Source: Desulfobacteraceae bacterium (GTDB taxonomy: Bacteria; Desulfobacterota; Desulfobacteria; Desulfobacterales; Desulfobacteraceae). From it: a stretch of DNA of 64,000 bases. The translations under genes were made by a program, and so were the position numbers. The notes under the pieces were generated by a model. It saw only the letters and a list, made by a program, of their open reading frames with translations, was not told the origin of the DNA and did no database searches. The stretch spans positions 1 through 64,000 of the forward strand of contig QZLA01000306.1 in assembly GCA_004796375.1 (NCBI GenBank), written 5' to 3'. Shown piece by piece: positions 34,190 to 43,469 of this stretch. Numbering within the stretch: position 1 is the first letter of the stretch; the number at the start of each line of letters is the position of its first letter.

Positions 34190-34206
34190 CTTTTGCACCC
34201 TTCCGA

Positions 34207-34239
34207 TTTTACATCTTTTTTACAAAGGTTTTACCACTG
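34207..34239 (+). promoter_or_regulatory. Three exact 11-bp direct repeats before the PGRP amidase gene
   Basis: TTTTACATCTT, TTTTACAAAGG and TTTTACCACTG follow one another at an exact 11-base period, ending 65 bases before the amidase ATG. Period and array form are those of OmpR/PhoB-family binding sites. A matching array (34940-34972) precedes the efflux operon encoding such a regulator. Confidence 0.65.
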
Positions 34240-34304
34240 CATGACACCTCTTCGCCTGTTTAAGGATAAAAATCAAGCAAGATTAACCTGCATGGGAGAA
34301 AACG

Positions 34305-34934
34305 ATGAAAAAATGCAGCATGTCCCTGATCCTGACCCTTGTTCTTGGAATGAGTGCCGCCTGTTTTGCCCTGGCCGGAAAAAACACACCCTCCTGGACG
34401 GATATCTACACCAAGAAAACCAGGATCGCCCGGGGCTGGAAGTATATTGTCATCCACCACAGCGCCACAGACGCCGGCAGTGCAAAGGCATTCCATAAAT
34501 ACCATTCGGACCGGGGGTATGGCGGCTTGTGCTACCACTTTGTCATCGGGAACGGAAACGGTTCTCCAGACGGAAAAATCGAAGAGGGGTTCCGCTGGAA
34601 AGAACAGATGGCCGGTACCCATGTGGATGTGAATTCCTGGTATCACAATATATTCGGGATCGGCATCTGTCTTGTGGGAAACTTTGAAAAATCCTCACCC
34701 ACCGAAAAGCAGATGCGTGCGCTCACCCGTTTGGTCAAGTCACTTTGCTTGGATTACGGCATCCCTGAAAAGAATATTATCGGTCACCAGGATGTCCCCT
34801 TCGGAGATATAAAGTGGAACACAAAGCGTATTCACGTCACATTCAAAGGAAAACAAACCGCAAAAACCAGTTGCCCGGGCAGGCATTTCCCGGACATCGG
34901 GGAACTCTTCGCAACGCATCACCCGCCGATTTGA
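34305..34934 (+). CDS. Exported PGRP/Amidase_2 peptidoglycan amidase
   Basis: 209 residues with a signal peptide (KKCSMSLILTLVLGMSAACFALA). The zinc amidase fold has YIVIHHSATDAG (first zinc histidine), YHFVIGNGNGSPDGKIEEG, GICLVGNF, and near the end RIHVTF and TSCPGRHFP, which supply the second histidine and the cysteine ligand. It hydrolyses N-acetylmuramoyl-L-alanine bonds in the periplasm, for turnover or sensing of muropeptides. The ATG has GGGAG upstream. It ends 96 bases before the small first gene of the RND operon and shares with it an upstream repeat array. Confidence 0.88.
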   Translation: MKKCSMSLILTLVLGMSAACFALAGKNTPSWTDIYTKKTRIARGWKYIVIHHSATDAGSAKAFHKYHSDRGYGGLCYHFVIGNGNGSPDGKIEEGFRWKEQMAGTHVDVNSWYHNIFGIGICLVGNFEKSSPTEKQMRALTRLVKSLCLDYGIPEKNIIGHQDVPFGDIKWNTKRIHVTFKGKQTAKTSCPGRHFPDIGELFATHHPPI

Positions 34935-34939
34935 CATTT

Positions 34940-34972
34940 TTTTCACATCTTTTTCACAAAGTTTTCAACACC
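34940..34972 (+). promoter_or_regulatory. Three exact 11-bp direct repeats before the RND efflux operon
   Basis: TTTTCACATCT, TTTTCACAAAG and TTTTCAACACC stand at an exact 11-base period, ending 58 bases before the first ATG of the operon. Copy 1 and copy 2 differ from those at 34207 mainly by A/C at the fifth and sixth bases. Proposed site for the OmpR-family regulator at 40833. Confidence 0.65.
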
Positions 34973-35030
34973 CTCCTGCTAACCTGCCGCTGAATCAAAA
35001 CCAGGGTATCAACAAAAAAAGGAGGGTATC

Positions 35031-35198
35031 ATGACGCATCAAAACCGCCTGGGGCAACTCCTCAGGCCTGTCACAATCTTTCGCATCCTCATGATTCTCT
35101 CCGGTTTCTTCGGGATTGCGGTCATGGCCTCACTCCTGTCCAGATCATATTCGCATTTCGTATACCGGTTTTTTGTTGCCGGATTATTCAACCATTAA
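35031..35198 (+). CDS. Small single-helix membrane protein, first gene of the efflux operon
   Basis: 55 residues from an ATG with a very strong ribosome site (AAAGGAGGG, spacing 4). The product has a basic N-terminus, one hydrophobic helix (about 15-38, IFRILMILSGFFGIAVMASLL) and a short polar/aromatic tail. No family recognised. Position 27 bases before the adaptor gene and the strong translation signal argue that it is real; small membrane proteins associated with RND pumps (for example AcrZ) are a precedent, but no similarity is claimed. Confidence 0.6.
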   Translation: MTHQNRLGQLLRPVTIFRILMILSGFFGIAVMASLLSRSYSHFVYRFFVAGLFNH

Positions 35199-35225: not shown

Positions 35226-36524
35226 ATGTTAAAGAAAATCCTTTTATGTACACTGTTGTTACTCTCCGGTATCGCTGGAATGCTGGCCATGGCATCTTTC
35301 AAAACGCCCCTGAGTCAAAGGACAGATCCTGTGCCGGCAAGGCTTTCCGTATCCGTAATCCAGGTACATCCGGAAGATGCCGCCCCGGTGATCACCGGAT
35401 ACGGCAGGGTCTACACGGTGCAGACGGTTGACTTATCCCCGCGGGTCAGCGGGCTCATCACCCATATCAACCCCAGGCTGGAGCCCGGGGAAACCCTGTC
35501 AAAAGGAGAACTTTTATTTCTCCTGGATGAAAAAGACTATAAACAACCCGTAACGGAACTGTCTTCAGAGGCACAAAGGCTGGAGAGCCGCCTTGAACAG
35601 ATCCGGGCCGGCCATGCCGTCAACCAGAAGCGATATGAGCTGGCCCGGCGCAATCTCGACATTTCACACGGCCGATATAACCGCCTCAAGGCGTTACATG
35701 AAAAGAAGGTGAGTGCAAAATCCACCCTGGATGAAGCCGCTGACCAACTGAACACTGCCAAAGATAATGCTGCACGCCTGTCCTGGATGGTTGAAGAATT
35801 CCCGTTTACACTCAAGCAGGTGCGCGCCCAGCTCGAACAGGTCAACGCCAGACTGGCGGCTGCGCAAGATGACCTGAATCACTGCAGAATGGTTGCGCCC
35901 TTCGATTGCCGGATCAAACACGTGGATGCAGAAAAAGGTCAATATGTGACCAAGGGCCGGCCCATACTGTCACTTGCGGATGATTCCATCCTGGAGGTCC
36001 AAATCAGTCTCGACAGTCGTGACGCTATAAAATGGCTGCGGTTTACCTCCCATGATCCTGAAAATCGTTATCCGTGGTTCTCCTCCCTTGAACCGGTGAC
36101 CTGCCAGGTGTTCTGGGCCGACGACGATCAAGTACCGCCCTGGCAGGGGCTGCTCCACAGGGTGATCCGGTATGACCCTGACATGCACACCCTGGTACTT
36201 GCCATAAGGATCGATGCACGCAGGGAAAAAGGTGCGCACAGACAGTTCCCCCTTGTGGAAGGAATGTTCTGCCGTGCACTGATCCCCGGCAGGACGGTTG
36301 AACATGTATACCGGCTTCCCCGGTCTTCTGTTACCGCAGAGCCGTCCATCCGCCTGGCGTGCAATAACCGGTTAAAAACCATACCGGTAGAAACCCTGTG
36401 GGTACTGAAAGAAGATGCATTCATAACCGGTGCTTTAGTCCCGGGTGATCAGGTGATTGTCGACCCCTTGATCCATCCGGTTGAGCATACACCACTGACT
36501 ATAATTCCATTAACAAAGGAGTAA
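35226..36524 (+). CDS. RND efflux periplasmic adaptor (HlyD/MFP family)
   Basis: 432 residues. An N-terminal hydrophobic anchor at about 4-24 is followed by a lipoyl half (VDLSPRVSGLITHINPRLEPGETLSKGELLFLLDEKDY near 75-110), a long alpha-helical coiled coil at about 110-220, the second lipoyl half (CRIKHVDAEKGQYVTKGRPILSLADD), and beta-barrel and membrane-proximal domains. It bridges the inner-membrane pump with the outer membrane. Second gene of the operon, five bases before the beta-barrel gene. Confidence 0.9.
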   Translation: MLKKILLCTLLLLSGIAGMLAMASFKTPLSQRTDPVPARLSVSVIQVHPEDAAPVITGYGRVYTVQTVDLSPRVSGLITHINPRLEPGETLSKGELLFLLDEKDYKQPVTELSSEAQRLESRLEQIRAGHAVNQKRYELARRNLDISHGRYNRLKALHEKKVSAKSTLDEAADQLNTAKDNAARLSWMVEEFPFTLKQVRAQLEQVNARLAAAQDDLNHCRMVAPFDCRIKHVDAEKGQYVTKGRPILSLADDSILEVQISLDSRDAIKWLRFTSHDPENRYPWFSSLEPVTCQVFWADDDQVPPWQGLLHRVIRYDPDMHTLVLAIRIDARREKGAHRQFPLVEGMFCRALIPGRTVEHVYRLPRSSVTAEPSIRLACNNRLKTIPVETLWVLKEDAFITGALVPGDQVIVDPLIHPVEHTPLTIIPLTKE

Positions 36525-36528
36525 AAAG

Positions 36529-37503
36529 ATGAAATTTAGAATTCTCATTTCGATTTGCCTGTTGCTGCTGTTCCACCTGTTACCGGCTGCCTGGTCACAA
36601 GATTCTTCGCCCGATGGATTTTACGGACGAGTCGATCTCGGAGGGCTGTGGATGAGCAGCAAGAGCTGGCTGGAGGCGGGTGACGATAACAGGCGCCTGG
36701 AAACCCTGGACCAGAAACCCAAGGGCCAAAGCGAATGGCTTCCGGTACCGAGTTTTGAACTCGGCTACTACTTCAACCATGACAGCCGGGTTTACTTTGG
36801 CATCCCCTTTGAGGAGGAGCCGCGGCCCACACTTGGAATTGAATTTGAAACCCCTGCCGGCATTGAGCTGGGTGCCAGCCTTTTCTACGGTATTCCGGAT
36901 GAGGTGTGGACGGATCCTTACCTGACCGGCGTCAACCGTGTCGAAACCGATGAGACCCGGTTTGGTGGAGAAATCACCTGTGAGATCAACGGATGGGAAC
37001 TTGGGTATGAACTGGAACAGGTGGATGTGGACAAAGATGATATTGGAAAACGGTTCTCAGAACTGAAACGGGACGGCATGATCCACCAGTTTGAACTGTC
37101 CTGGGACATCGAACTCGGCAGCGGGTTTGAGCTGATCCCCGGTGCCGCATATACCCTGGCCGATATAGACGGTAAAGCCAACCGGTATAATGGATACACG
37201 GCAAATCTCGACCTGGAAAAAAACTGGGAAAACATTGAACTCAAATTATCTCTGGAGGCCGGCACCCACGATTACGACGCCATCCACCCCATCTTCAGCA
37301 ATACGAGAAAAGATGATGTCTATGAGGCAATGGCCAGTGTGTCATGGTTCAACCCCCTTGGGTTTGAAGGATTTGCCGTCCGGGCCGGCGGCGGATACGA
37401 GCGATGCAACTCCAATATCAACTTCTACGACAGTGAGGGCGCATTTGCCTTTGTCACCCTGGGTTATGAATTTGGTTCAACCCGGAAACACCGTCATGAT
37501 TAA
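36529..37503 (+). CDS. Outer-membrane beta-barrel protein (not TolC-like)
   Basis: 324 residues with a signal peptide (KFRILISICLLLLFHLLPAAWS). The mature part consists of alternating amphipathic strands (GFYGRVDLGGLW, SFELGYYFNHDSRVYFGI, PTLGIEFETPAGIELGASLFYGI, ITCEINGWELGYELEQV) and ends in AFAFVTLGYEFGS..., a barrel-closing strand. There is no coiled-coil TolC domain. It may fall in the DUF2860-type family; I am not certain. Its place between adaptor and pump, with AAAGGAG upstream, suggests a pump partner or a protein responding to the same envelope stress. Confidence 0.75.
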   Translation: MKFRILISICLLLLFHLLPAAWSQDSSPDGFYGRVDLGGLWMSSKSWLEAGDDNRRLETLDQKPKGQSEWLPVPSFELGYYFNHDSRVYFGIPFEEEPRPTLGIEFETPAGIELGASLFYGIPDEVWTDPYLTGVNRVETDETRFGGEITCEINGWELGYELEQVDVDKDDIGKRFSELKRDGMIHQFELSWDIELGSGFELIPGAAYTLADIDGKANRYNGYTANLDLEKNWENIELKLSLEAGTHDYDAIHPIFSNTRKDDVYEAMASVSWFNPLGFEGFAVRAGGGYERCNSNINFYDSEGAFAFVTLGYEFGSTRKHRHD

Positions 37504-37602: not shown

Positions 37603-40600
37603 ATGACAGCTCTTTTGATCCGGTTTGCCGGGAATTCGGTATTCAGCCATATCATTCTTTTTTTGCTGCTGGTTGCCGGACTCATGGCTGTCAACACCAT
37701 GCAGCGGGAGTTGTTTCCGGACTTTTCAATGGATGAGATCCTGGTTGAAGTGCGTTTTCCCGGTGCCGACCCTTCAGAGGTCCAGCAGGGCGTCACCGTT
37801 AAAATTGAAGAGGCGCTCAAGGGAATGGAAGGCATTGCCCAGTATACGAGCCGCTCTGAAGAGGGGATAGGCAGTGCTGAGATCCTGGTCAAACACGGTT
37901 ATGAGACGGCACAGGTCCTGGCCCGCATACGAAGCAGAATCAATGCGGTTTCCACCTTTCCGGATACGAGTGACAACCCGGTCATTTCAGAGGTGATGCA
38001 CCGCACCGAAGTGATGAAAATATATGTATCAGGCAGTTGTACTGAAAAGGAACTCAAGGCGGCTGCCGTCAGGATCAAAGAGCGGCTGACCGCCCTGGAT
38101 GAAATCTCCCAGGTAGAGCTGTTCGGGACCCGCGATTATGAGATCAATGTTGAGCTGAATCAGCAGCAGTTGAAAGCCTATGGGCTTTCCCTTGAAGAGG
38201 TAAGCCGGAATATTGCGCTGAACAGTGATGGCCTGCCCGGTGGTGACATTCTGACAGATGCCGGACACGTCCGTGTCAGGACCATGGGGCAGCGGAACAC
38301 GGGCAGGGAACTGGCCGAAGTCCCGGTACTTGCAGGAATTGACGGAGGCAAGGTCATCCTTGGCCGGATCGCGGATATCAGGGACAGCTTTACAGAAGAC
38401 ACCCATGAAGTGACCATTAACGGCAGCCCTGCCGTGATTCTTGAGATTTATAAAACCCGGCGCGAAGACGCCCTGGAGATATCCGCGGCCGTGGCGTCAT
38501 TTCTGGACAGGCAGCAGGATGATCTCCCGTCAAATCTAAGTATGGGTGTGCTCTACGATCTGACCGATGACCTTCGCTCCCGCATCGATCTTCTGGCTAA
38601 AAACGGGTTGATCGGGCTTTGCCTGGTGATACTTCTGCTGGGGCTGTTCCTGGATATCCGGCTCAGCTTCTGGGCCGGACTGGGGATCCCGGTATCGATC
38701 CTGGGTGCCCTGGTGGTCGTCTGGGCCATGGGGGGAAGCATCAACATGCTTTCCCTGTTCGGGTTGATTACGGTCCTGGGTATTGTTGTGGATGATTCCA
38801 TTGTGGTGGGCGAGGCGGTTTTCCACCACTTTGAATCCGGCTGCTCTCCTCTCCAGGCAGCGGTCAGAGGGGTCAGGGAGGTGGGAATACCTGTGACTGC
38901 AGCGATTTTGACCAGCATTATCGCCTTCCTGCCACTGGCGTATATCGGGGATGTGATCGGCAAATTCCTGTCCATCCTGCCCATGGTCGTGATCCCCTGC
39001 CTGATCATCTCCTTGATTGAAAGCGTCTGGCTGCTGCCGGCCCACCTGGCCCACCGCCTCAGAAAAAAAGGGAACCATAAACCCGGGCATCCATTCCTGG
39101 AAAAAATGAGCGCGGCGCACCGCTACATCCAAAGCCGCCCGGATTGGTTTGCCCGCTGCCTGTACCTGCCGTTTCTCAAGCGGGTCCTGGTGCATCGTTA
39201 CCTGTGCCTGTCGGCAGCGACAGTCATATTGCTGCTGTGCGCCGGCCTGATCTGGGGCGGATGGGTCAAAACCGAGGTGCTTCCGGAAACCGGAAGCACC
39301 ATTTTATCTGCATCCATCACATTCCCGGCCGGTACGTCAGACCGAATGACCAGCCAGGCGGTATCCAGGATCGAAAACGCATTGCTCAACCGGTTGAGAA
39401 AAAAACCAGGAACCCACAAGACCCTGCTCCTCAACCGGATGACGGTTGTGGGCAGTACCGTATCAGAGGAGCCTGAAAAAGGCTCCCATGCCGGAGGGAT
39501 ACAGGTTGTGCTCACTCCGGCAAAAGAGCCGGGCGTACCCGCAGACGCATTGCTGAAGATGTGGAAAGAGGAAACCGGGGCGATCCCGGGTGCACGCTCA
39601 CTGGTATTTGAAACCCGCTCAGAGGGTCCGCCCGGAGAACCGATTGAAGCTTGGCTCCTGGGCCAGGACCCGGTTCAACTGACCCAGGCATTTCAAGAAT
39701 TCACCCGGGAACTCTCCACCCTGGACGGTGTGCACGAAATCCACGGGGATGACCTGTCCGGTGTTGATGAACGACACATCACCCTTAAACCCCTGGCCTG
39801 GTTTCACGGCCTGTCGCAGCAGGATGTGGCCCGCCAGGTCAGGACGGCCATTTATGGCAGCGAGGCCCTGCGGGTCCAGCGGGGAAAGGATGAGATCTGC
39901 GTGAAAGTGCGAATGACCCGCCGTGAACGCTCCTCTGTCTCGATCCTGGATAACCTTGAACTTGAAACCCGGCAGGGGACCAAGGTGCCCTTGCACGCAG
40001 TCGCCCATGTTCAGCTGGCCAAGGGGCCTGAACGGATCAGGGGAGTGGATGGCACCCGCTGTCTGGCCGTCAGTGCCGATGTGGACCTTGAGCGCGCCAA
40101 CCCGGATGATATCATAGAGGCGTTAACCCGGAACCTCCTTCCAAGGCTTGCCCGGAAATACCCCGGTGTCACCGTCTCTTTTGAAGGGGATGAAAAACAC
40201 ATGAAAGATGCACTGGGCGGACTGTATATTGGTTTCCCCCTGGCCGTGATCGGTATTTTCGTTGTTGTGGCCGCCATGTTTCACTCCTACGTCCAGCCCC
40301 TGGTCATCCTTTTCATGATCCCGTTCGGCATGGTGGGTGCCGTGTATGGACACCTCGTCATGGGATATCCCATATCCTTGATGAGCATATTCGGCATGGT
40401 TGCCCTGTCCGGTGTGGTAGTCAATGATGCCATCATGCTCATCGAGCGGTTCAACAGCAACCTGGAATCCGGTACCGCATTTTTCGAGGCACTTGAAAAC
40501 GCCGGAAGGCGGAGGTTCAGGGCGATTATGCTGACCACCGTCAGCACGGTGAGCGGGCTTGCTCCCCTGCTTTTTGACACCAGTATCCAGGCCGGATTCA

Positions 40601-40836
40601 TTATCCCGATGGCCCTCTCCATTTCTGCCGGGCTGATATGTGCCACGGCAGTAACCCTGATCCTTGCACCCTGCATCCTGGCGATCCTGAACGATCTGCG
40701 CCTGATCATCCACACGTTGCCGGGCAGGATGAAAGCATCGCGGGAAAGCCTTGAACCGGCAGTGAGGAAAATGAGGTGGACCCGGGAGAACATTTCGCCT
40801 ACAATTGAGCAAACCCATACCGGAGGGCTGATGTGA
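37603..40836 (+). CDS. RND-family efflux pump, inner-membrane subunit
   Basis: 1077 residues with the standard 12-helix, two-porter-domain layout of AcrB-like pumps. In TM4 the proton-relay pair D397-D398 (GIVVDDSIVV) is present. In TM10 the position of AcrB K940 is replaced: the segment reads SGVVVNDAIMLIERF, so the relay is N-D rather than K-N. That variant is common in other RND branches. It probably exports amphiphiles or drugs from periplasm or membrane; substrate unknown. It is translationally coupled to the response-regulator gene by a 4-base overlap. Confidence 0.94.
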   Translation: MTALLIRFAGNSVFSHIILFLLLVAGLMAVNTMQRELFPDFSMDEILVEVRFPGADPSEVQQGVTVKIEEALKGMEGIAQYTSRSEEGIGSAEILVKHGYETAQVLARIRSRINAVSTFPDTSDNPVISEVMHRTEVMKIYVSGSCTEKELKAAAVRIKERLTALDEISQVELFGTRDYEINVELNQQQLKAYGLSLEEVSRNIALNSDGLPGGDILTDAGHVRVRTMGQRNTGRELAEVPVLAGIDGGKVILGRIADIRDSFTEDTHEVTINGSPAVILEIYKTRREDALEISAAVASFLDRQQDDLPSNLSMGVLYDLTDDLRSRIDLLAKNGLIGLCLVILLLGLFLDIRLSFWAGLGIPVSILGALVVVWAMGGSINMLSLFGLITVLGIVVDDSIVVGEAVFHHFESGCSPLQAAVRGVREVGIPVTAAILTSIIAFLPLAYIGDVIGKFLSILPMVVIPCLIISLIESVWLLPAHLAHRLRKKGNHKPGHPFLEKMSAAHRYIQSRPDWFARCLYLPFLKRVLVHRYLCLSAATVILLLCAGLIWGGWVKTEVLPETGSTILSASITFPAGTSDRMTSQAVSRIENALLNRLRKKPGTHKTLLLNRMTVVGSTVSEEPEKGSHAGGIQVVLTPAKEPGVPADALLKMWKEETGAIPGARSLVFETRSEGPPGEPIEAWLLGQDPVQLTQAFQEFTRELSTLDGVHEIHGDDLSGVDERHITLKPLAWFHGLSQQDVARQVRTAIYGSEALRVQRGKDEICVKVRMTRRERSSVSILDNLELETRQGTKVPLHAVAHVQLAKGPERIRGVDGTRCLAVSADVDLERANPDDIIEALTRNLLPRLARKYPGVTVSFEGDEKHMKDALGGLYIGFPLAVIGIFVVVAAMFHSYVQPLVILFMIPFGMVGAVYGHLVMGYPISLMSIFGMVALSGVVVNDAIMLIERFNSNLESGTAFFEALENAGRRRFRAIMLTTVSTVSGLAPLLFDTSIQAGFIIPMALSISAGLICATAVTLILAPCILAILNDLRLIIHTLPGRMKASRESLEPAVRKMRWTRENISPTIEQTHTGGLM

Positions 40837-41546
40837 AATCAATGAAACCCAAACATCCGTTAAGACTTCTTCTGGTTGAGGATCATGAAGATATCAGCCA
40901 GAACATTGCCGACTATTTTGAATCCAAGGGGCATATCCTGGACTTTGCGGCAAATGGTATTCAAGGCCTGCACCTGGCCCTGACCCAAGACTATGATGTC
41001 ATGATCCTGGATATCATGCTACCGGGAATGGACGGGCTGACCCTGTGCAAACGTTTCCGGGAATCGTCTGCCAGGCAGATCCCCATTCTCATGCTGACCG
41101 CCCGGGATACGCTGCCGGATAAGATCGACGGTTTTGATGCCGGTACGGATGACTACCTGGTTAAACCCTTTGCCCTCCAGGAACTGGAAGTCCGTGTATA
41201 TGCCCTGGCAAGGCGGGAACTGCCCGATATGAAAAGTATTTTGATCGTGGGTGACCTGGAACTGAACCTGGAGACCATGGAGGTGAAGCGGGCAGACCGA
41301 AAGATCGACCTGAACCGGGCATGCTTGAAGATCCTTGAGCAATTGATGAAGGCATCCCCCGGTGTGGTGACCCGTTCCGACCTGGAGCTGGCGCTCTGGG
41401 GAGATATGCCCCCCGGAAGCGACTCCCTGCGAAGCCATATGTATATGCTGAGAAAAAAGATCGATACCCCGTTTTCCGAACCCCTGATTCAGACCATACA
41501 CGGGACAGGGTATAAACTGGTGATGAGCAATGAAATATCATTATAG
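40833..41546 (+). CDS. OmpR-family response regulator
   Basis: 237 residues. The receiver domain (12-125) has acidic residues in LLVEDHEDI, phospho-acceptor aspartate in VMILDIMLPGMDG and lysine in YLVKPFA; the winged-helix DNA-binding domain spans about 140-233 (TRSDLELALWGD...SHMYMLRKKI...IHGTGYKL). The GTG start follows GGAGGG by five bases and overlaps the pump stop. Its gene position makes it the likely regulator of this operon; family members bind direct repeats of about 10-11 bp, which fits the arrays at 34207 and 34940. Confidence 0.93.
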   Translation: MKSMKPKHPLRLLLVEDHEDISQNIADYFESKGHILDFAANGIQGLHLALTQDYDVMILDIMLPGMDGLTLCKRFRESSARQIPILMLTARDTLPDKIDGFDAGTDDYLVKPFALQELEVRVYALARRELPDMKSILIVGDLELNLETMEVKRADRKIDLNRACLKILEQLMKASPGVVTRSDLELALWGDMPPGSDSLRSHMYMLRKKIDTPFSEPLIQTIHGTGYKLVMSNEISL

Positions 41547-42873
41547 TATACGACACCGGATCATTATTGCCTTCTGCGTCTTCGGGCTGGTCTTATCCGT
41601 GACCTATATGCTCCTGATCGATGGGTGCATGGCTCTTGCAGAGGATATGGTATTTGAAAAACGGATCAGGATCGAGATTGAACATTACCTGTCAAAATTC
41701 AGGACCAACCCGAACACGCCGCTGCCCTACTCGACCTATATCAAAGGATACCTGGGCACGGACCGCATCCCGCCCGGTCTCCGCCAAATGGTGCAAGGCC
41801 TTTCCGAAGGGATGTACGAAACAGACGGACCGGGTGCCATAGAAGGCCCGGGAGATTATCATGTGGCCATCAGGCAGGTGCCGGGATCCCAGATGATGCT
41901 CTACCTGTTCTATGATGTCGGCAGCCTGAAAATAAACGAGCAGTATGAGATGATTATCCGTGTCTTCCTTGCGGCAGTATCCCTTCTGGTGGCAGGCGTC
42001 GGGGCGGGAATCGGTGTACTGCTCTCCCGCCGGATCATTGCCCCGCTTCGCGAATTGACCCGCCAGGTTGCACAAAGCCGGCCCCACAACCTGCCCCTTG
42101 ACATATCAGGCCGATTTGCCGATGATGAAATCGGGTTCCTGGCAAAAACCCTTGAGGAGAGCCTGCAGCGTATCCAATCGTTTGTAGAGCGGGAGAAAGC
42201 GTTCACCCGTGATGCCAGCCATGAACTGAGAACACCGGTAACGGTTATCAAGGGCGCTCTGGAGTTGATCGAGCAACTGCCGGTTTACACGGACAAATCG
42301 CTCCACGGGCCCCTGGAACGTGTCAAACGATCGGTCAAAGGGATGGCCATTACCATTGACACCTTTTTGTGGCTGGCCCGGGAAGACGCATTTGAAACCA
42401 CGGATCAGGCCTGCGATGTTGCCGCCGCATCCCGGGAGACCTTCGAGGAATATGCCCACCTGTTTAAAAGCCGACCGGTAACCGCCAGCTTCAGGCAGCT
42501 GGGATCACCGGCCATCGACGCGCCGGATGCCGTATTCAAGATTGCAGTGAGCAATCTGCTTCGCAATGCATTTTACCATACCCCCAAAGGCGATGTCTGT
42601 CTGACCGTCAAGCCAAATGCGGTTGAGGTATTCAATTCCACAGCGTTTGACATGCCCGGCAATCTCCGGGATGTCACAGCACCCCATGTCCGGGGCAAGA
42701 ACAGTGAAGGGTTCGGGCTGGGACTTGCCATTGTCAAGCGGTTGTGCGAGCGGTTCAACTGGCATCTTACCATTGACAGCCCTCATGATGGCGGCACGTG
42801 TGTCATGTTGTCCTTTGACCCGCCCCCCATACAGAAGAATCCACGTAAACAGCAGATGGAGAACGCGATATGA
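41530..42873 (+). CDS. Sensor histidine kinase partner of the efflux regulator
   Basis: 447 residues. Helices near 10-30 and 138-163 flank a periplasmic domain of about 105 residues; then HAMP, HisKA with H in FTRDASHELRTPVTV (about residue 237), and an ATPase with N-box NLLRNAFYH and G-box GFGLGLAIVKRL. This is the QseC/CusS-like architecture. The start overlaps the response-regulator gene by 17 bases and its end overlaps the next gene by four, so kinase, regulator and pump are one translationally coupled unit. Confidence 0.93.
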   Translation: MKYHYSIRHRIIIAFCVFGLVLSVTYMLLIDGCMALAEDMVFEKRIRIEIEHYLSKFRTNPNTPLPYSTYIKGYLGTDRIPPGLRQMVQGLSEGMYETDGPGAIEGPGDYHVAIRQVPGSQMMLYLFYDVGSLKINEQYEMIIRVFLAAVSLLVAGVGAGIGVLLSRRIIAPLRELTRQVAQSRPHNLPLDISGRFADDEIGFLAKTLEESLQRIQSFVEREKAFTRDASHELRTPVTVIKGALELIEQLPVYTDKSLHGPLERVKRSVKGMAITIDTFLWLAREDAFETTDQACDVAAASRETFEEYAHLFKSRPVTASFRQLGSPAIDAPDAVFKIAVSNLLRNAFYHTPKGDVCLTVKPNAVEVFNSTAFDMPGNLRDVTAPHVRGKNSEGFGLGLAIVKRLCERFNWHLTIDSPHDGGTCVMLSFDPPPIQKNPRKQQMENAI

Positions 42874-43469
42874 TTGAAGAATTCAGGACACATATTACCA
42901 AAGGATTTGCCATCCTGGTCGTATTATTGATGTGCATCGGCGAAAGTCACTGGGATGATGCCCTTCCCTCCCTGACCACGATGATGATCTTTTCCGGTAT
43001 ACTCCTTGTGGGTGTGGCTTCGGCAGGCCGCCTATGGTGTTCACTCTATATCGCAGGGTACAAGACCAACCGTCTGGTGACTCAAGGCCCTTACTCCATG
43101 TGCAGGAATCCGCTGTATTTCTTCAGTTTTATAGGTGCCGTGGGTGTCGGGCTCAGTTCAGAGACATTCATTATCCCGTTACTCATCCTGGTTGCTTTCG
43201 GGCTTTATTACCCCTTTGTGATCAGGAAGGAGGAAAAAAGATTGCTTCACCTTCACAGGGAGGAATTCAAACGATACCTGAGCCGGGTACCCCGGTTTTT
43301 TCCAAAGTTATCTCTTCTTGAGGAGCCCCTGCACTACCAAGTAAAACCGGTACGGTTCAAGAAGCAGATGTTTGACGTGCTCTGGTTCGTCTGGGTTCTC
43401 GGTGTTATAGAAATCATTGAAGAGTGTCACCGCCAGGATATCTTCCCGGCGATAATCACCATTTACTAA
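42870..43469 (+). CDS. ICMT-like membrane methyltransferase family protein, last gene of efflux operon
   Basis: 199 residues with about five helices. The central motif LVTQGPYSMCRNPLYFFSF ... RKEEKRLLHLHREEFKRYLSRVPRFFP matches the isoprenylcysteine methyltransferase-like family. The C-terminus adds a helix (FDVLWFVWVLGVIEIIEE). It starts in a 4-base overlap with the kinase gene, so it belongs to the two-component/efflux operon. Lipid or polar-head methylation at the membrane is a reasonable but untested role. Confidence 0.82.
   Translation: MIEEFRTHITKGFAILVVLLMCIGESHWDDALPSLTTMMIFSGILLVGVASAGRLWCSLYIAGYKTNRLVTQGPYSMCRNPLYFFSFIGAVGVGLSSETFIIPLLILVAFGLYYPFVIRKEEKRLLHLHREEFKRYLSRVPRFFPKLSLLEEPLHYQVKPVRFKKQMFDVLWFVWVLGVIEIIEECHRQDIFPAIITIY

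Follow-up and report, generated by a model that had tools for sequence, protein, structure and literature searches.

Two direct-repeat arrays, one upstream of a peptidoglycan amidase gene and the other upstream of an RND efflux operon, probably (roughly 85%) serve as promoter operators for two OmpR-family two-component systems that differ from each other and are neighbours by happenstance. Within the 64,000-nucleotide stretch of DNA analysed (the window), the arrays belong to two classes of box, and the evidence consists of these classes, their linkage to and co-occurrence with regulator genes, their promoter geometry, and the different recognition helices of the two regulators.

An earlier note on this DNA had described each array as three tandem copies. 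On re-reading, the 11-bp period, the positions, the sequences, the spacing of 65 and 58 bases to the start codons and the three tandem copies were all as claimed, although a fourth element per array had been overlooked: ATGACA at 34241 in the first array, and TTGACA at 34931, which is the first element of the second array and overlaps the amidase stop codon. The natural half-site is TTTACA in the first array (34208, 34219 and, in the form TTTACC, 34230) and TTCACA in the second (34942 and 34953); relative to each other, the two 11-mer alignments drawn previously were one base out of register. The matching order of variant tails partly reflects T-rich spacer, and the half-sites themselves are unlike (TTTAC vs. 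TTCAC). The spacers in 34206–34240 and 34940–34972 do have a common order (TCTTT then AAG-G/T-T), though the half-site classes differ; this common order is possibly due to chance. Direct repeats in tandem at roughly 11 bp are a trait of OmpR/PhoB-family operators, and both arrays, which have this trait, look like putative operators of that family. A single motif (TTTTYACA) matches both arrays, but was rejected because it lumps two classes that comparison separates.

The array upstream of the RND operon (34931..34969, + strand) is a predicted operator of the class that we term C-type, in which TTSACA occurs three times and is followed by TTCANN at an 11-bp period. Its elements are TTGACA (34931), TTCACA (34942), TTCACA (34953) and TTCAAC (34964), spaced by N5 throughout, and it is the best C-pattern match in its own genome (0 mismatches). 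A -10-like TAACCT (34980..34985, +) follows, its first base 16 nt from that of copy 4, as in the C-type training promoters; in relatives, the spacing from the first base of the fourth repeat to that of the -10-like hexamer is exactly 16 bases. The first gene after the operator is a predicted small membrane protein ORF of 55 aa (35031..35198, +), for which no Pfam match was found and which was not noticed in the operons of relatives. Also on the + strand are genes for the RND periplasmic adaptor (MFP; 35226..36524; TIGR01730, 110 bits), a predicted outer-membrane barrel (DUF2860; 36529..37503; PF11059, 203 bits), the RND permease (37603..40836), the OmpR-family response regulator RR1 (40833..41546; PF00072 and PF00486), its partner sensor histidine kinase (HK; 41530..42873; HAMP, HisKA, HATPase_c), and a PEMT/ICMT-like membrane methyltransferase (42870..43469) that is kept with RR1-HK in two relatives (G008 and G347; 62–63% identity).

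Adaptor homologues are present in 42 of 78 relatives. At seven RND loci that were fetched, the adjacent regulator is 57–61% identical to RR1 and is accompanied by a kinase, and all seven carry TTCACA arrays 100–290 bases upstream of the adaptor gene; a wider regulator search returned five further RND loci with an array (L210, L212, L215, L217, L219). The C-type box is found upstream of MFP at 12/12 homologous RND loci with an adjacent response regulator (RR) and HK vs. 0/14 without (Fisher P 1e-7, which overstates the association because the loci are not phylogenetically independent). RR1 orthologues that are 57–65% identical accompany C-type boxes, and RR1 is the probable ligand of the C-type box. 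Arrays also lie directly before or just after RR-HK genes in the absence of an RND pump (L124, L127, L205, L207–L209, L211, L213); at some loci with a relative of the regulator, no array was seen (L202, L204, L206, L225, L227, L128). DUF2860 genes of relatives (L065, L068, L203) have their own C-type box beside an RR-HK pair, which suggests that DUF2860 is a constant partner of the RR1-type regulator; a search of the open-licence literature for DUF2860 with two-component systems returned nothing relevant.

Further boxes of this kind occur elsewhere in the same genome. A paralogous pump (contig C129) has the same promoter layout as the C-type, and its RR-HK is probably the pair that adjoins a TolC-like gene at one edge of contig C22. 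A C-type box of 34 bits (C368:7833; L051 position 2334) lies upstream of a PAP2 phosphatase gene, in an operon that also encodes a glycosyltransferase (PMT_2/ArnT-like) and a third protein, which is GT2-like; this could be an operon for lipid A modification within the RR1-type regulon. A TTCAC-type array (C33:977; L048) precedes an operon that encodes a CreB-like regulator (188 bits, partial sequence) together with a CreD-like protein. Thus, several regulators of this genome may read TTCAC boxes, including the paralogous RR2 and the CreB-like regulator.

The array upstream of the amidase gene is a predicted operator of the second class, T-type (34208..34246, +), with the layout TTTACA-N5-TTTACA-N5-TTTACC-N5-ATGACA, in which ATGACA occupies the -35 position. 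A weak candidate -10, GATAAA (34265..34270, +), lies 18 nt after this -35-like element, a layout that matches the vWA promoters of relatives (see below); a sigma-70 consensus promoter was looked for at this array and not found. The array is an exact T-pattern match, and pattern searches of its own genome identified exactly two perfect T-boxes, at the vWA operon and at the amidase gene.

The gene itself (34305..34934, +) encodes an exported PGRP/Amidase_2 N-acetylmuramoyl-L-alanine amidase of 209 aa (PF01510, 79.1 bits; cut-off 26), in which H51, H52, Y77, H161, T188 and C190 are invariant across three orthologues. We take H51/H52, Y77, H161 and C190 to be the conserved zinc/catalytic residues of Amidase_2/PGRP, so that both the domain score and the conserved residues place the protein in this family. 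Homologues were found in 11 of 340 genomes of the order at E 1e-8, with only two true orthologues among them, neither of which adjoins an RND operon of this kind. The G092 orthologue (57% identity) belongs to an operon of two genes preceded by a weaker T-box; an exported-looking ATP-dependent DNA ligase is encoded directly upstream in the same operon (L223, C795). The G233 orthologue has no T-box upstream; hence, the link between amidase and T-box, seen in 2/3 orthologues in the order, is not universal. Orthologues in two gammaproteobacterial MAGs have no such box upstream.

A genome search for the trio, a check that the earlier note had proposed, identified a second perfect match on contig C366, where the box precedes a gene for a vWA-domain protein and part of a histidine kinase gene; the remainder of the kinase gene lies, with the gene for an OmpR-family regulator, at the edge of contig C217, such that the vWA operon of this genome is split over two contigs. 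The vWA-HK-RR operon occurs in more than 20 genomes with the full T pattern upstream as a four-element box, and a full-pattern search showed that most vWA genomes hold exactly one copy, at the vWA operon, with reversed-pattern controls near zero. Across 340 genomes of the order, a T-box (at most one mismatch) is present in 25/27 genomes with the vWA gene vs. 1/313 others, a comparison for which P values overstate independence because the genomes are related. The lone T-box without a vWA gene is in a 79%-complete genome (G065), where it precedes a secreted-protein family that also has a box in G233 and G092.

In most genomes, the vWA regulon appears to comprise autoregulation only. G092 has T-boxes at more than 10 promoters, including those of a TolQ-to-Pal operon, a YkuD L,D-transpeptidase, further vWA genes, and the operon of the DNA ligase and amidase orthologue (weaker box). 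These predicted targets support a role for the vWA system in the envelope and peptidoglycan, and the orthologue operon would independently place the amidase in the vWA regulon. A search of the open-licence literature for a described vWA-linked two-component system returned nothing relevant, and the system is apparently new to description.

Position weight matrices trained on sites from relatives alone (21 T-type; 21 C-type, with the C129 site left out) cleanly separate the two arrays. The amidase array scored 48.0 on the T matrix and 19.5 on the C matrix (the latter with C129 included; 20.3 without), and for the RND array the scores were 41.0 (C) and 16.3 (T). When each true site was left out in turn, its score was 39.5–59.5 for T and 36–59 for C, except for the divergent C129 site (25.5); across classes, C-type sites reached at most 25.2 on T, and T-type sites at most 29.2 on C. 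Run over 2.2 Mb of related loci, both matrices returned almost only these arrays. The regulators are likewise distinct: the recognition helix reads SD-x-LR-S/T-H-x-Y in all aligned RR1-type regulators and TRTLDQHI in 7/7 vWA-type regulators, and the two types differ throughout this helix.

A refinement, compatible with two separate systems, is that the classes overlap in function: each regulator would mainly bind its own box, with low-affinity cross-binding or read-through from the amidase gene into the RND operon giving partial coupling. Within the window, each array is the best secondary match of the other class's matrix (16–20 bits), the second array abuts the amidase stop codon, and no terminator-like site was found on the + strand between the amidase and RND genes; however, the residual cross-scores are lower than those of all true sites of the other class, and we regard such overlap as rather unlikely.

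Far less probable is a single regulon in which RR1, by binding the two arrays, ties efflux to peptidoglycan cleavage, as had originally been proposed. The common 11-bp period, the adjacency of the genes and the similar start distances fit that model, and CpxR, which controls both amidases and RND pumps, provides a precedent (PMC5063474). Against this, the amidase array agrees with the vWA class in its half-site, its fourth element and the geometry of its promoter, the helices of the two regulators differ, and T-boxes across genomes follow the vWA operon rather than RR1 (in G032, RR1 and a C-box are present and a T-box is absent). What survives of the proposal is the assignment of the arrays to OmpR/PhoB-type regulators and of the RND array to RR1, whereas control of the amidase by RR1 is not supported.

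A reading of the arrays as non-functional T-rich repeats that arose by chance is scarcely credible: T-rich spacers do inflate matches to TTT motifs, but TTTTYACA-N3-TTTTYACA (up to three mismatches) has 12 matches in the window vs. 1.7 expected, with 0/100 shuffles reaching 12, trios scoring at least 16/18 number three in the window vs. 0–1 in each of 20 random windows, the reversed-pattern controls gave almost nothing, and the position is kept in more than 20 genomes.

If the arrays serve two different systems, phosphorylated RR1 would bind the C-type array at 34931 and switch on its own RND/DUF2860/RR/HK operon (autoregulation), with two dimers on the four 11-bp repeats standing in for the missing -35 element. 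The regulator of the vWA operon (C366/C217) would bind the T-type array at 34208, where the three repeats are directly upstream of the -35-like ATGACA, and would turn on the exported amidase, which would be one output of a regulon for envelope maintenance. Binding, the signals and the sign of control (activation, not repression) are predicted here from sequence, and the amidase would presumably act on the cell's own wall.

More speculatively, the vWA-HK-RR system of Desulfobacterales could be a Gram-negative equivalent of WalRK, a proposal that we consider possible but less likely to be right than wrong. By this proposal, the secreted vWA protein would help to sense the state of the envelope; the regulator would tune wall hydrolases (the amidase), cross-linking (L,D-transpeptidase) and Tol-Pal via TGTAAA-N5 boxes; and the regulon would have expanded, from the one autoregulated operon of most genomes, to about a dozen promoters in a single lineage.

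The coupling model, though attractive, is probably wrong, and two precise operator assignments take its place; the vWA-linked system may oversee the upkeep of envelope and peptidoglycan in sulfate-reducing bacteria. Because the classes differ mainly at one half-site base and in the recognition helix, they offer a clean natural test of regulator specificity.

Both classes resemble operators of known systems. The cre/blr-tag of CreB/BlrA is TTCAC-N6-TTCAC (PMC3660660), which the C-type box contains at 34942–34957; the 11-bp direct repeat and an OmpR-family regulator are also common to both, whereas the C-type box has four copies rather than two and RR1 is encoded in an RND operon. Identity of RR1 with CreB was rejected (NF008296, 117.8 bits vs. 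a cut-off of 273). The WalR/VicR box is TGTWAH-N5-TGTWAH, and wall hydrolases, too, are under WalR control (PMC4168254). Read on the opposite strand, the T-type box is TGTAAA-N5-TGTAAA, such that the WalR motif is present on the reverse strand of the amidase array, and the best model match of the vWA-system regulator is YycF/WalR (G029 orthologue); the differences are three repeats plus a -35 element, the vWA partner protein, and the Gram-negative sulfate-reducer lineage. Identity with WalRK was rejected (YycF, 229.9 of 340 bits; WalK, 186.8 of 725; G029 orthologues). The CpxR box, GTAAA-N4-8-GTAAA, belongs to a regulator that activates amidases and efflux pumps (PMC5063474) and fits the T-type box in reverse reading; the scores for CpxR/CpxA were below the cut-offs (168.7 of 341 bits for CpxR, from the G029 orthologue, and 111 of 486 bits for CpxA). 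Because neither regulator passes the curated family cut-offs, we regard the two not as members of the CreB, WalR or CpxR families, but as regulators that would work like those systems.
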